A stretch of DNA of 64,000 nucleotides from Methylopila sp. 73B (GTDB lineage: Bacteria > Pseudomonadota > Alphaproteobacteria > Rhizobiales > Methylopilaceae), in the NCBI RefSeq assembly GCF_000526315.1, contig NZ_JAFV01000001.1, positions 2,046,001 through 2,110,000 of the forward strand, in the 5' to 3' direction. The notes under the pieces are model-generated. The model worked only from the letters and a program-made list of their open reading frames with translations. It was not told the origin of the DNA and did no database searches. This document shows, in pieces, positions 19,847-23,795 of the stretch. Position 1 is the stretch's first letter. Each line of letters begins with the position of its first letter. The position numbers were made by a program, and so were the translations under genes.

Positions 19847-20455
19847 TTAACCGCGCATCGCCTGCCAGTCCCGGATCGCGTCGAGCGGGTGCAGGATCAT
19901 GATGACGTTCAGAGTGAGGTTGTCGCGGATCACATAGAGCGCGATCAGCTCCATCGCGATGGCGGCGACGACGATCGTCCAGGTCGGCGCGAGCCGCGCG
20001 ATGGTGAAGCCGAGCGCCATGAAGCCGATGTCGGCGACCGAGTTCAGCACGCTGTCGCCCGCGAAGGCGTCGGAGACGGTGCCCTCGCGGTAGCGCTCGA
20101 TGATGATCGGCGAGTTCTCCAGCAGCTCCCAAAACCCTTCGATCGCGACGGCCGCGACCAGCGCCGTCACGAGCGCGAGAGGTCTTCCCCGCAAACGCCC
20201 GACGAGAACGGCCAGTCCGTAGAACAGGAAGCCGTGGATCACGTGGCTGAGCGAGTACCAGTCCGCGACGTGCTGGGAGGTGCCGGCGTCGTTCGCGGCG
20301 CCGTGCCAGAGCTCGACCGTCCCGCAGGGACAGATCGCGGGCCGGCCCATGGCGAGCAGCGTCGCCGCGAAGCCCGCGACAAGCGCGAGCGCGACGCCGG
20401 CCCGCACGGCGCTGAAGCCTACCGGGCGCGAGGACAGGCTGGCCTCAGCGGACAT
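19847..20455 (-). CDS. DUF2585 (UPF0314) membrane protein
   Basis: A 202-residue integral membrane protein with about five hydrophobic helices and the conserved blocks ICPCGTVELWHG, SHVIHGFLFYG, EGFWELLENSPIIIERYR and DSVLNSVADIGFM that define the family. Conserved His, Glu and Asp in membrane-adjacent loops hint at metal or lipid chemistry, but the function is unknown. It overlaps glcE by 11 bp and precedes glcF by 11 bp, so it is co-translated with glycolate oxidase, which suggests either a membrane anchor role or simple hitch-hiking. Confidence 0.9.
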   Translation of the reverse strand: MSAEASLSSRPVGFSAVRAGVALALVAGFAATLLAMGRPAICPCGTVELWHGAANDAGTSQHVADWYSLSHVIHGFLFYGLAVLVGRLRGRPLALVTALVAAVAIEGFWELLENSPIIIERYREGTVSDAFAGDSVLNSVADIGFMALGFTIARLAPTWTIVVAAIAMELIALYVIRDNLTLNVIMILHPLDAIRDWQAMRG

Positions 20456-21641
20456 GCATCCGCCCTGGGTTCAGCACGCCGGCGGGATCGAAGCTCGCCC
20501 GGAGGCCGGCGGTGAGGCGCGCGAGCGCCGGCGCCTCCGGCTCGAACACGTCGACGGCGGCGCGCACTGCGTCCGGCGCCCGCATCAGCGTCGCGTGACC
20601 GCGCGCCTCGCGCACGATCGGACGCAGCGTCGACGCGCCGGCGTCGCCCTCGGCCGAGGTCGCGACCCAGATCAACCCGCCGCTCCAGTCGTAGAGATGC
20701 GCCTCCGCGAGCGGCCCCAGCCGCGCGACCACACCCGGCCCCCGCGTCGGCGCGACGGAGATGCGCCATACCGCCCGCTCGGGCGCTCCCAGCAGCGAGG
20801 CCGCCGCGCCGATCTCGCGCCAGAGCGTCCGGGAGGCCTCAGCGTCCAGCCGCGACGCGGTTCCAAAACCCTTGAGCCGGGCGGCGAGCTGGACGGCGCG
20901 GTAGGCGACCTGGCTCTCGAAGTTCTCGAGCCTGAGGCAGGTGCGCGACGGCGCGCCGTTCCGCCCCGGCAGATGCGCCGCGCCGGACACCTCGAACGGC
21001 GTCCCCATGGCGGCGCAGAGCGCGGCGACGCCATGGGCGTCGTCGAGCCCTTCGAGCACCAGCGTCGCCTCGGTTTCGGCGATCGGCAGCGTCTTGAAGG
21101 TCGCCTCGGTGACGACGCCCAGGACGCCGTGCGAGCCGCAGGCGAACTTCACGAGGTCGTAGCCCGTGACGTTCTTCATCACCCGGCCGCCGGAGCGGAT
21201 GGTCTCGGCGCGCCCCGTCGTCAGCCGGACGCCGATCAGCGCGTCGCGGGCCGCGCCGGCGATGACGCGCCGCGGGCCGGACGCGTTGGTCGCGACCAGG
21301 CCGCCGATGGTGGGGTCCGCCGTCGTTCCATAGAGCGCGCGATGGTCGAGAGGCTCGAACGCCAGCCGCTGCCCGACGCGGGCGAGCTCCGCCTCGACCT
21401 CCGCCACCGGCGTGCCGGCCTTGGCCGAGACCACCAGCTCGGACGGCTCCAGCAGCGTGACGCCGGTCAGGCGCGCGGTCGACAAGGTGAGCGCCGCCTG
21501 GACGGGCCGCCCAAACCCCGAACGGCTGCCGGCGCCGCGGACAAGAATGGGCGTCTTTGCGTCAGCGGCCTCGCGGATGGTCGCCTCGATGCCGGCTTCG
21601 TCGAAGGGAGAGACGGTCTCCATGGGGTTCTCGTGGGTCAT
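20445..21641 (-). CDS. glcE: Glycolate oxidase FAD-binding subunit GlcE
   Basis: The protein (398 residues from the ATG at 21641) has the PCMH-type FAD-binding fold: TPILVRGAGSRSGFG, GTTADPTIGGLVATNASGPRR and NVTGYDLVKFACGSHGVLGVVTEATFK. It is the second flavin-type subunit of glycolate oxidase. The ATG at 21641 overlaps the DUF559 stop codon as ATGA; a second ATG at 21623 (METVSPF) is possible, and neither has a strong ribosome site, so translation probably depends on coupling. An in-frame extension upstream is repeat-derived and not believed. Confidence 0.94.
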   Translation of the reverse strand: MTHENPMETVSPFDEAGIEATIREAADAKTPILVRGAGSRSGFGRPVQAALTLSTARLTGVTLLEPSELVVSAKAGTPVAEVEAELARVGQRLAFEPLDHRALYGTTADPTIGGLVATNASGPRRVIAGAARDALIGVRLTTGRAETIRSGGRVMKNVTGYDLVKFACGSHGVLGVVTEATFKTLPIAETEATLVLEGLDDAHGVAALCAAMGTPFEVSGAAHLPGRNGAPSRTCLRLENFESQVAYRAVQLAARLKGFGTASRLDAEASRTLWREIGAAASLLGAPERAVWRISVAPTRGPGVVARLGPLAEAHLYDWSGGLIWVATSAEGDAGASTLRPIVREARGHATLMRAPDAVRAAVDVFEPEAPALARLTAGLRASFDPAGVLNPGRMHVR

Positions 21642-21779
21642 GCGGAACCACCCCCACCCCGAACCCCTCCCCGCAAGGGGGAAGGGGGACACTGACGCTT
21701 CAGATGGATCTCATCGTTCGAGCCAAGCGCGACCGATCCCCCTCCCCCTTGCGGGGAGGGGCCAGGGGTGGGGGTGGCG
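21635..21779. repeat. REP-type palindrome, copy 1, inside the glc operon
   Basis: The unit starts GGGTCATGCGGAACC, includes CCCCACCCCGAACCCCTCC and CCGCAAGGGGG on one side and CCCCCTTGCGGGGAGGGG and AGGGGTGGGGGTGGCGC on the other, so the ends can fold on each other. It is a direct repeat of 22168-22314 at roughly 80% identity. It encodes the last ~45 residues of the DUF559 protein, and its edge supplies the ATGA that joins DUF559 to glcE. Confidence 0.88.
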
Positions 21780-22174
21780 CAGGATGGAGCGCCGACCTCA
21801 GAGACAATCGCCTCCATCACGCCTTCGATGTTCCGCAACACGTCGTTGTTCCAAAATCTGAGCACCCGCCAGCCCTCCCCCTCGATCGTGGCCGTGCGAG
21901 CGTCGTCGCGGGCGCTTTCGGCGTGCTGGCCGCCATCAACTTCGATCACGAGGCGAAGGGGCCGGCAGGCGAAGTCCGCGATGTAGGGGCCGATCGGGAC
22001 CTGTCGTCGGAAATGCGTGGCGCCCAAATCGAGCTGTTTCAGACGGCGCCAGAGCTTCCGCTCGGCGTCGGTAGGATTGGGCCGGTTGGCGCGGGCGAAA
22101 TCGTCCAGGCGGGCACCCGACACTGCGCGGTCGGTAGCGGCCCAGGGGCGGCTGTCGTTACTGTCGCGGGTCAT
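21638..22174 (-). CDS. DUF559 nuclease-like protein with repeat-encoded tail
   Basis: The 178-residue protein has a DUF559 core (about 25-125), related to very-short-patch-repair endonucleases: FRRQVPIGPYIADFAC, LVIEVDGGQH with acidic residues typical of PD-(D/E)xK folds, and GWRVLRFWNNDVL. Residues from about 129 onward (CATPTPGPSPQGGGG to RGGVRGGGGSA) are translated from the palindromic repeat. The start codon lies in the second repeat copy and the stop overlaps glcE. It splits glcD from glcE and looks like a passenger. Role unknown; a nuclease acting in DNA repair or repeat mobility is a guess. Confidence 0.85.
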   Translation of the reverse strand: MTRDSNDSRPWAATDRAVSGARLDDFARANRPNPTDAERKLWRRLKQLDLGATHFRRQVPIGPYIADFACRPLRLVIEVDGGQHAESARDDARTATIEGEGWRVLRFWNNDVLRNIEGVMEAIVSEVGAPSCATPTPGPSPQGGGGSVALGSNDEIHLKRQCPPSPLRGGVRGGGGSA

Positions 22175-22314
22175 GCGAAACCACCCCCACCCCGCATCCC
22201 TCCCCGCAAGGGGGAGGTGGGACCCTGACGCTGCAGATAATTCTCATCCGCTGAGCCAAGCTCCATCGGTCCCCCTCCCCCCTGCGGGGAGGGGTTAGGG
22301 GTGGGGGTGGCGCC
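22168..22314. repeat. REP-type palindrome, copy 2, inside the glc operon
   Basis: Same orientation and layout as 21635-21779, beginning GGGTCATGCGAAACC and ending AGGGGTGGGGGTGGCGC. It lies between glcD and the DUF559 gene. Its left edge contains the DUF559 start codon and the stop codon of the 60-residue repeat-encoded reading frame. Confidence 0.88.
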
Positions 22315-22353
22315 GGATAAGGCGCCGCAGGCCGGAACCGCCATCTCCCTCAC
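22171..22353 (-). CDS. Repeat-encoded 60-residue reading frame linking glcD to DUF559
   Basis: A GTG at 22353 overlaps the glcD stop codon (GTGA), and the frame ends in a TGA overlapping the DUF559 ATG (ATGA). The product (MREMAVPACG to MRGGMRGGGGFA-like end) is about 37/51 identical to the DUF559 tail because both come from the repeat. It may exist only to keep ribosomes moving across the insertion; a functional peptide is not claimed. Confidence 0.4.
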   Translation of the reverse strand: MREMAVPACGALSGATPTPNPSPQGGGGPMELGSADENYLQRQGPTSPLRGGMRGGGGFA

Positions 22354-23795
22354 GCCGCGGCCTTCGCGATGCGGTTCTCCAGCGGGAACACCTTGGCGGG
22401 GTTCAGCAGCCAGGCGGGATCGAACACCGACTTCACGCGCATCTGCTGCATGAGTTCGATGCGGGTGAACTGGGCCGTCATCAGGTCGCGCTTCTCGATG
22501 CCGACGCCATGCTCGCCGGTGAGGCAGCCGCCGGCCTCCACGCAGGCGAGGAGGATGTCCTCCCCGGCTTTTTCAGCCTTCGCGAGCGAGACGGGGTCGT
22601 TCATGTCGTAGAGCACCAGCGGGTGCAGGTTGCCGTCGCCGGCGTGGAAGATATTGGCGACCTTCAGCCCCTGGGCCTCGCAGATCTCGCCGATGCGGGT
22701 GAGCACCTCGGGCAGCTTCCCCGTCGGAATGGTGCCGTCCATGCAGATGTAGTCCGACACGCGGCCCATGGCGCCGAAGGCGGACTTCCGGCCCTTCCAG
22801 ATCGCGGCGGCTTCGGCCGGCGTCTTGGCCTGCCGCGCGTAGGTCGCGCCATGCGCCTCGGCGATCGCGCCGATGCGGGCGAGCTGCTCGTCGATCTCGG
22901 CGGCGGAGCCCTCAACCTCGACGATCAGCATGGCGCCCACGTCGCGGGGGTAGCCGGCCTTGGCGAAGTCCTCGCAGATGTCGATCGCGAGCTTGTCCAT
23001 GTACTCGATCGCGACCGGCACGATGCCGGCGCCCAGCACCGCCGCGACGCAGGCGCCGGCGGCTTCGGGCGAGGGAAAGCCGAACAGGATGGGCCGCGCG
23101 CCCTCGGCCAGCGGCAGGATGCGGAGCGTGGCCTCGGTGACGACGCCGAACTGGCCCTCGGAGCCGCAGATCAGGCCGAGCATGTCGAGGCCGGGCGCGT
23201 CGAGCGCGTCGCCGCCGATCTCGACGATCTCGCCTTGAAGCGTGACGAAGGTGACGCCGAGGAGGTTGTTGGTGGTCACGCCGTACTTCAGGCAGTGCGC
23301 GCCGCCGGAGTTCATCGCGACGTTGCCGGCTATGGTGCAGGCGAGCTGCGAGGACGGGTCCGGGGCGTAGAAGAAGCCCTCATGCGCGATGGCGGCGGAG
23401 ACGCCGAGGTTGGTGACGCCGGTCTGCACGCGCACGGTGCGGTTGGCGAGATCGACGTCGAGCACCTTCGACATCTTGGCGACGCCGAGCACGACGGCGT
23501 CCTCCTGCGGCAGCGCGCCGCCGGCGAGCGAGGTTCCGGCGCCGCGCGGGATCACCGGCACGCCCTCGCGGCTGCAGAAGGCCAGCACCTCCGCCACCTG
23601 TTTCGTGGTCGACGGCAGCACGACCACCATGGGCACGCGGCGGTAGGCGGTAAGCGCGTCGCTTTCGAAGGCCCGACGCTCGTCCTCGGAGACGATGACG
23701 CCCTCGCCCGGCACGATCGCCCGCAGCCCCGCGACGATGGCGTCGCGCCGGGCCAGGATCGCGGGATCGGGGGCGAGCAATGCGATGCCGCTCAT
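22350..23795 (-). CDS. glcD: Glycolate oxidase subunit GlcD
   Basis: The 481-residue flavoprotein has an FAD_binding_4 domain (VPVIPRGAGTSLAGGALP, LACTIAGNVAMNSGGAHCLKYG, DMLGLICGSEGQFGVVTEATLRILP) and a C-terminal FAD-oxidase domain with NIFHAGDGNLHPLVLYD and GGCLTGEHGVGIEKRD. It is the catalytic dehydrogenase subunit of glycolate oxidase. Start 23795 (MSGIALLAPDP) is preferred over longer readings that enter the promoter region. It is the first gene of the operon and diverges from lutA across 218 bp that should hold both promoters. Confidence 0.95.
   Translation of the reverse strand: MSGIALLAPDPAILARRDAIVAGLRAIVPGEGVIVSEDERRAFESDALTAYRRVPMVVVLPSTTKQVAEVLAFCSREGVPVIPRGAGTSLAGGALPQEDAVVLGVAKMSKVLDVDLANRTVRVQTGVTNLGVSAAIAHEGFFYAPDPSSQLACTIAGNVAMNSGGAHCLKYGVTTNNLLGVTFVTLQGEIVEIGGDALDAPGLDMLGLICGSEGQFGVVTEATLRILPLAEGARPILFGFPSPEAAGACVAAVLGAGIVPVAIEYMDKLAIDICEDFAKAGYPRDVGAMLIVEVEGSAAEIDEQLARIGAIAEAHGATYARQAKTPAEAAAIWKGRKSAFGAMGRVSDYICMDGTIPTGKLPEVLTRIGEICEAQGLKVANIFHAGDGNLHPLVLYDMNDPVSLAKAEKAGEDILLACVEAGGCLTGEHGVGIEKRDLMTAQFTRIELMQQMRVKSVFDPAWLLNPAKVFPLENRIAKAAA

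Follow-up and report, generated by a model that had tools for sequence, protein, structure and literature searches.

Small nuclease genes of the DUF559 family are bracketed in many bacterial lineages by repetitive extragenic palindromic (REP) sequences of one super-family, and each DUF559 subfamily carries its own type of repeat. In the genus of Methylopila sp. 73B, dimers of these REPs that lie between same-strand genes are also read in the phase that couples the two genes, far above chance. Both patterns are described here around one locus in a window of 64,000 nucleotides (the whole stretch analysed: contig NZ_JAFV01000001.1, positions 2,046,001 to 2,110,000), where an earlier note, made from the letters alone, had placed a DUF559 gene between two direct REP-type repeats and between glcD and glcE, an arrangement that is present as described. 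Along the minus strand, glcD, a repeat frame, DUF559 and glcE follow one another in an unbroken GTGA/ATGA/ATGA chain, again as the note gave it, and the site is best read as nested insertion into an operon with translational coupling. Our preferred reading, which we hold at a probability of about 0.6, is a REP–nuclease element that would be mobile in the manner of a REPtron (an enzyme gene flanked by its cognate REPs) or a homing endonuclease, and tolerated in coupled operons when it lies in phase.

DUF559 genes and the repeats that bracket them

A scan of GTDB genomes supplied 80 DUF559 loci from Alpha-, Beta- and Gammaproteobacteria, Desulfobacterota, Chloroflexota, Helicobacter and others, and 74 of them were scored in a motif-free comparison of the upstream 350 bp with the downstream 350 bp. 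At a threshold of at least 20, 43 of the 74 loci were bracketed by matching sequence, against 2 of 408 offset controls from the same loci. The matched flanks form one REP super-family with a CCCTC core, CCCTCACCCTAACCCTCTCCC-n-GGGAGAGGG; cores stand on both sides in 49 of 73 DUF559 loci and on at least one side in 64, over a background of 0.063 per 750 bp. In genomes of the same order, a CTCCC...GGGAG core occurs within 400 bp on both sides in 17/33 DUF559 loci and in none of 30 glcE loci; in the comparison with PIN genes, which are small and accessory, the counts were 17/28 for DUF559, 0/30 for glcE and 0/29 for PIN. Flank-repeat type follows the DUF559 subfamily within the genus (Mantel p=0.0015). 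Flank similarity is about equal for pairs from one genome (34) and pairs from two (32), and different subfamilies carry different repeats, also inside one genome. Bracketing in so many phyla suggests that repeat and nuclease form a partnership not recognised before.

The subfamily found in the glc operon also occurs, together with its repeats, elsewhere in two sister genomes: G002 has it between glyQ and glyS, and G007 at a further site (the genome of the window is G000, and the other G numbers are related genomes of the genus). In all three, the DUF559 start codon has a fixed place in the repeat edge, as given by the border consensus. The repeat-plus-nuclease mobile unit proposed in the earlier note stands in substance, as an arrangement that its nuclease may move. 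The glyQ–glyS junction was also considered as a second series of one-repeat and filled states and was rejected as such, as G002 and G012 are both filled, the latter by another DUF559 gene that is enclosed by matching outer repeats; in other genomes of the genus the junction lacks a repeat or the gene order differs, so that the junction shows recurrence at one site without a one-repeat state. As a separate observation, glyQ–glyS carries inserts of about 660 nt in G008 (L220) and G003 (L226) that resemble a VapBC-type pair with a PIN gene.

The same data bear on whether the gene and its repeats belong together at all. REPs adjoin many gene ends, and they could simply prefer to land beside dispensable DUF559 genes, in which case bracketing would not mark a unit. 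We consider this target preference very improbable: PIN genes, equally dispensable, were bracketed in 0/29 loci, the same subfamily keeps the same repeat type across genomes and sites, and in G000, G002 and G007 alike the gene starts at the same point of the repeat edge. The main rival accepts the unit and makes the gene a passenger, an ordinary Vsr-like repair or restriction nuclease riding between REPs, with host recombination through REP homology moving or gene-converting the whole. A Caulobacter methyltransferase mutant needs the DUF559 protein VsrA for its DNA-damage response, and VsrA reportedly has a nuclease-like genotoxic effect and has been tied to the repair of deaminated 5-methylcytosine (PMC12907096); the two glc repeats are long direct repeats able to recombine, and repeats persist in genomes without DUF559. 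Such a passenger would not account for one repeat type per DUF559 subfamily, even within single genomes, for one repeat super-family around DUF559 in many phyla, or for PIN, an accessory gene class of similar size, never being bracketed, and we regard it as unlikely. Elsewhere, two near-identical tandem DUF559 genes in G012 (L204, G012:C1:194900-205800), each with the same repeat unit, GATCCTCCCCTGCGTCAGCGGGGGAGGGGGACCATGGCG, suggest a head-to-tail duplication of [repeat-DUF559].

DUF559 genes also tend to be coupled to what follows them. Among same-strand cases, 20/58 DUF559 genes have a stop that overlaps the start of the following gene, against 61/421 other pairs (p=5e-4). The gene lies directly upstream of pheT with a stop/start overlap at L088, L093, L099 and L182, with the frame continuing into pheT at L099, and directly upstream of dnaG with such an overlap at L140, L180, L189, L194, L195 and L197; pheT and dnaG were named from N-terminal sequence, and several of the dnaG cases come from related sphingomonads and are non-independent.

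The association may extend to Escherichia coli and, with another repeat, extends to another nuclease family. In MG1655 (L360, 1346000-1356000) a repeat, CCCCTCTGGGGAGAGGGTTAGGGTGAGGGG, lies about 170 nt past the stop of the DUF559 gene ycjD, towards fabI; it belongs to the DUF559-REP super-family and is present in 5366 of 5426 E. coli genomes, at a median of 18 places. As it stands on one side of ycjD only, it is supporting and not decisive. It is probably the E. coli repeat known as ‘box C’. BoxC is a 56-bp family of 32 copies (PMC2267715). Stand-alone GIY-YIG nucleases, taken as a control in the same order (L391-L420), proved to be bracketed themselves, in 20/26 loci by the motif-free score, with the CTCCC core in 0/26 and CGTC-type motifs on both sides in 12/26. 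A sample from the class (L421-L450) gave 14/23 loci with a score of at least 18, against 2/49 outer windows. These flanks form a REP super-family of CGTC/GTCAT..ATGAC and TTCGA type, and CGTC REPs appear to have no dedicated enzyme (PMC3733652).

Repeats as coding linkers between coupled genes

The two glc copies, A and B, measure 164 nt each, and either consists of two inverted REP arms of 61–62 nt that are 77% complementary. The arm consensus is CCCCTCCCCCTTGCGGGGAGGGGTTAGGGGTGGGGGTGG, with no conserved GTAG. Most dimers in G000 carry their palindrome cores on the outside, with the GGGTGGGGGTGG arms between them; both glc copies and the copy at 1761289 have the reverse layout. The repeat is found at about 40 places in the 4.38 Mb genome (127 BLAST matches), of which 13 are convergent, 22 same-strand, 2 divergent and 3 intragenic. 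This distribution is that of ordinary REPs, mostly intergenic, and the inverted dimer with its linker, its many copies and its mainly extragenic position correspond to what is called a REPIN (REP doublet forming a hairpin) or BIME (bacterial interspersed mosaic element). The earlier note's view of the repeat as a coding linker applies to the chain junctions described below and not to most repeats. Across the genus, matches range from none in G003, G005 and G011 to more than 140 in G007 and G012. The REP-associated tyrosine transposase (RAYT) was rejected as the enzyme behind these repeats, being absent from G000: the Y1 transposase family PF01797 had no match among G000 genes, and a single weak one, in G007, in the whole genus sample. 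Against repeat-free G011, possible flanking duplications of about 19, 17 and 10 bp were read (L010, L040 and L046 against L282, L269 and L288), at three sites only, as intergenic DNA elsewhere is too diverged from G011.

At the glcD–glcE junction, three states occur in the genus. In G011 and G005 the site is empty, the glcD stop overlapping the glcE start as GTGA (GCGGCGTGAGCGAGACC and GCGGCGTGACCGACACG); in G009 a single repeat sits at the overlap, giving GTGA-60 aa-ATGA with no DUF559; and in G000 the site is filled, with repeat, DUF559 and repeat. On either side of the G009 repeat, the linker can be aligned with the outer side of one G000 copy, so the insertion is the same one. The comparison of sister junctions suggested in the earlier note thus finds empty sites and stop/start overlaps instead of random frames with neither. 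Copy A and the G009 copy differ at 25 positions in 183 nt, without an indel or a stop, and the differences fall 10/7/8 on codon positions 1/2/3. Because there is no third-position bias, the similarity of the repeat peptides only mirrors DNA identity; if anything is conserved, it would be the frame and not the peptide. The junction is a recurrent landing site for repeat-like inserts. An unrelated CGTC-type REP occupies it in G003 (L065); in G001 (L067) it holds an unrelated CTCCCC-type repeat, part of which is masked by N.

The reading frame was then set against chance. Test units were same-strand gene pairs of the genus with a repeat dimer between them, and a chain was counted where a start overlaps the upstream stop, the frame is open through the dimer and its stop overlaps the downstream start. 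The null consisted of nine phase combinations, with the repeat, its ends and its composition held and only the phase on each side varied. Chains were present at 9/33 junctions of the discovery set against 1.71 expected, a count reached in 0 of 200,000 simulations, and at 4/12 junctions of a replication set from which orthologues of the discovery sites had been removed (0.67 expected, p=0.0012). Combined, 13/45 junctions carry a chain against 2.37 expected, and on average about one chain falls to each of the eight alternative phases; among repeat-free same-strand gaps of 100-400 bp, 3/80 have one. The proposal that the repeat behaves as a coding linker which spares coupling is borne out by these counts and by the three junction states. 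A further control, in which 1-2 nt were added halfway through the repeat (9 vs 0 and 1), was dropped as biased, since one frame may be open in both halves.

Chain junctions include ruvC–ruvA, proA–nadD, queA–tgt, ileS–lspA, nuoN–birA and thrC–M16 peptidase (Pfam supports RuvC, RuvA, the nadD-type cytidylyltransferase, QueA, TGT, SPase II, biotin ligase, threonine synthase and M16; proA, ileS and nuoN were named only from C-terminal sequence). At the three sites where G011 has a stop/start overlap (glc, thrC–M16 and 1808559), the G000 insert forms a chain in all three. The thrC–M16 insert reads GTGA-69 aa-ATGA within a flanking duplication of about 19 bp, with CCGCCGCGTGAGCGCGCGC / CCGCCCAATGAGCGCGCGC on either side, and that at 1808559 reads TGATG-63 aa-overlap. 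At both, bases of the overlap region are found on both sides of the insert, so that a stop is kept on the left and a start on the right, which would be a simple way of sparing coupling.

Could such chains arise without selection? The repeats are GC-rich and poor in stops, their edges carry ATGA and many genes start with it; indeed 48% of frames are open through the repeat. The border consensus contains ATGA, though the exact tetranucleotide is present in only 16/92 arms. This artefact of open frames is disfavoured by the nine-phase control, with 13 chains observed against about one per alternative phase, and by replication, and we hold it to be very improbable. A regulatory role, with the repeat as terminator, messenger RNA (mRNA) stabiliser or attenuator like classical REPs and the coding phase a by-product of ribosome-covered mRNA, would suit the position of most repeats at convergent or same-strand gene ends, as for REPs in PMC3733652. 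It leaves unexplained both the exact 4-nt overlaps at the two ends and the bracketing of DUF559, and seems to us improbable.

A candidate REP–nuclease element among known systems

The protein scores 119.4 bits against PF04480 (cut-off 20.6, E=8.5e-35), and D67, E78 and D80 of a conserved D...ExD are invariant in 26 aligned sequences. An AlphaFold2 (AF2) model of the domain, with a predicted local distance difference test (pLDDT) value of 77 and most of the core above 88, matched by Foldseek PDB 3hrl, a gonococcal endonuclease-like protein (E=1.2e-5), and PDB 3r3p, the catalytic domain of I-Bth0305I (E=1.2e-4, template modelling (TM) score 0.74 by target). A profile search with hidden Markov models (HMM) agrees (3hrl 1.4e-37, 3r3p 0.0097). 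The model points to a PD-(D/E)XK/Vsr-like nuclease fold, that of the homing endonuclease I-Bth0305I. An anti-phage defence role was tried and rejected: PADLOC gave only weak partial matches, to nuclease domains of large proteins.

We propose the following course of events. Its first part is shown by the relatives: ancestrally, glcD stop and glcE start overlapped as GTGA, and a REP dimer entered at this overlap in the lineage of G000 and G009; G000 has DUF559 and a second direct copy as well. DUF559 would be the cognate endonuclease of these REPs, cutting at or near their palindromes, and repair from a REP-DUF559-REP copy could install the gene in a bare REP, as in homing, or spread REP pairs. 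The REP pairs would then behave as gene-less, non-autonomous derivatives of the DUF559 element, comparable to miniature inverted-repeat transposable elements (MITEs). Both the action of the nuclease on the repeat and movement by the nuclease are steps that we infer. Insertions in operons would survive if open in the phase set by the upstream stop and ending at the downstream start, with ribosomes presumably translating through the repeat frame and then re-initiating. The repeat, stop-poor in this direction and with ATGA in its edge consensus, fits such a condition for survival more readily than other DNA.

Several observations weigh against this reading. G009, G010 and G008 retain many repeats without a cognate DUF559, and G002 has the gene with few repeats. 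The authors of the VsrA study assign the protein to mismatch repair and not to mobility (PMC12907096). The single repeat of G009 could equally be a state before DUF559 arrived or one left by its loss through recombination between copies A and B. No purifying selection on the repeat peptide was seen between copy A and the G009 copy. Outside the genus, chains occurred at 2/17 sites against 0.9 expected (control 11/203), which is not significant, and within it genes were called by a home-made codon-score model, so that downstream starts are predictions. Finally, in repeat-free G011 an open chain runs through other spacer DNA at 4/15 of these junctions, so what is selected seems to be the junction, with the repeat tolerated, not designed, and coupling may belong to the junction by itself.

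The candidate REP–nuclease element shares features with several known systems. As in REPtrons (RAYT/TnpAREP; PMC8266576, PMC3733652), the enzyme gene adjoins its own repeat type and is flanked by cognate REPs also found elsewhere in the genome, repeats far outnumber the gene, the type of repeat varies together with the enzyme subfamily, and the REPs form inverted dimers. Unlike in REPtrons, the enzyme is a Vsr-like DUF559 protein and not an HUH transposase, with no PF01797 in G000, the repeat has no conserved GTAG, and the gene recurs in coupled operons with stop/start overlaps. Because HUH transposase and GTAG both fail, the system would be REPtron-like in its working and not a RAYT REPtron. 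With I-Bth0305I and other Vsr-like (EDxHD) homing endonucleases it shares the fold of the catalytic domain (PDB 3r3p), but DUF559 is a stand-alone domain amid multicopy REPs, not intron-borne with a unique target. The single unbroken repeat of G009, at the place of repeat-DUF559-repeat in G000, is what homing would start from, and loss by recombination would look no different. VsrA, PDB 3hrl and E. coli YcjD belong to the same family, PF04480, but no repeat association is reported for VsrA and other DUF559 proteins in the papers found.

Among repeats read as protein, the Rickettsia palindromic elements and the enterobacterial repetitive intergenic consensus (ERIC)/RU elements with open reading frames (PMC2759123; PMC3733652) are likewise mobile palindromes, but they extend or interrupt one protein, whereas here the repeat is a frame to itself that has both a start and a stop and is joined to the two neighbours by overlaps. 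Like prokaryotic MITEs (PMC10969869), gene-less repeat pairs share terminal sequence with the gene-bearing form; unlike them, the gene is a homing-type nuclease and there is no defined target duplication (10-19 bp at three sites only). In the open full-text literature, with subscription papers and preprints outside the search, neither the DUF559–repeat association nor REP coupling linkers were described.

To our knowledge, only GTAG-type REPs have a known partner enzyme. We can imagine, tentatively and at somewhat less than even odds, a general unnamed class of small stand-alone nucleases of homing fold, including the GIY-YIG/CGTC pairing, each enclosed by a REP super-family of its own that varies along with it and whose spread it drives; in one alphaproteobacterial genus or more, gene-less pairs would persist in coupled operons as translated linkers handing on ribosomes. 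Among bacterial repeats, REP palindromes are very common, and a subfamily-specific nuclease partner for CCCTC-core REPs, together with the copy by ycjD in K-12, makes REP spread testable in a laboratory strain. The coding linkers suggest a rule for mobile DNA that persists in an operon, namely to be open in the right phase and to end on the next start codon, and translated REPs would explain many odd hypothetical proteins and protein tails of PTPNPSPQGGG type.

Layout of the glc locus

Features of the glcD–DUF559–glcE locus, in window coordinates
Feature	Coordinates	Strand	Basis or remark
glcD-type gene for a flavin adenine dinucleotide (FAD)-linked oxidase	22350..23795	-	PF02913/PF01565; start from codon score
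GTGA overlap of glcD stop and repeat-frame start	22350..22353	-	site of the ancestral glcD–glcE GTGA overlap
Coding linker 1, 60-codon frame through copy A	22171..22353	-	sequence; equal-length frame in G009
Repeat copy A, inverted REP arm pair, cores inward, arms outward	22164..22327	.	
ATGA overlap of linker 1 stop and DUF559 start, within REP edge	22171..22174	-	
DUF559 (Vsr-like) nuclease gene with repeat-coded C-terminal tail	21638..22174	-	PF04480 match; fold match
DUF559 domain proper	21797..22108	-	profile positions 3-107 of 109
Conserved nuclease motif region, D67-F68 ... E78-x-D80-G-G-Q-H84	21923..21976	-	invariant columns, 26-sequence alignment
Repeat copy B, direct copy of A (84% identical)	21631..21794	.	
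ATGA overlap of DUF559 stop and upstream in-frame glcE ATG	21638..21641	-	
glcE gene	20445..21641	-	PRK11282 GlcE E=1e-78, under its equivalog cut-off

Some details of the earlier note shift with this layout. Its repeat spans (21635-21779 and 22168-22314) were rightly located, the elements being a few bases longer, and the peptides encoded by copies A and B are similar as it said, with 34/47 residues in common and not 37 of 51. Of the two start codons that it put in the repeat edge, that of DUF559 holds, the border consensus TTCAGAATGAAGC placing an ATG at the same position. For glcE, the conserved start is probably the ATG 18 nt downstream (codon 21621-21623, METVSPF), because relatives align from residue 7 or 8, and the repeat-edge ATG is predicted to be an extra upstream in-frame start. 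The DUF559 frame continues through copy B to its stop. The linker left of copy A was considered as a remnant of a DUF559 3' end and rejected, the similarity being limited to the repeat border plus GTGA. The longest open reading frame of glcD extends to 23957, and the protein scores below the TIGR00387 and PRK11230 cut-offs.

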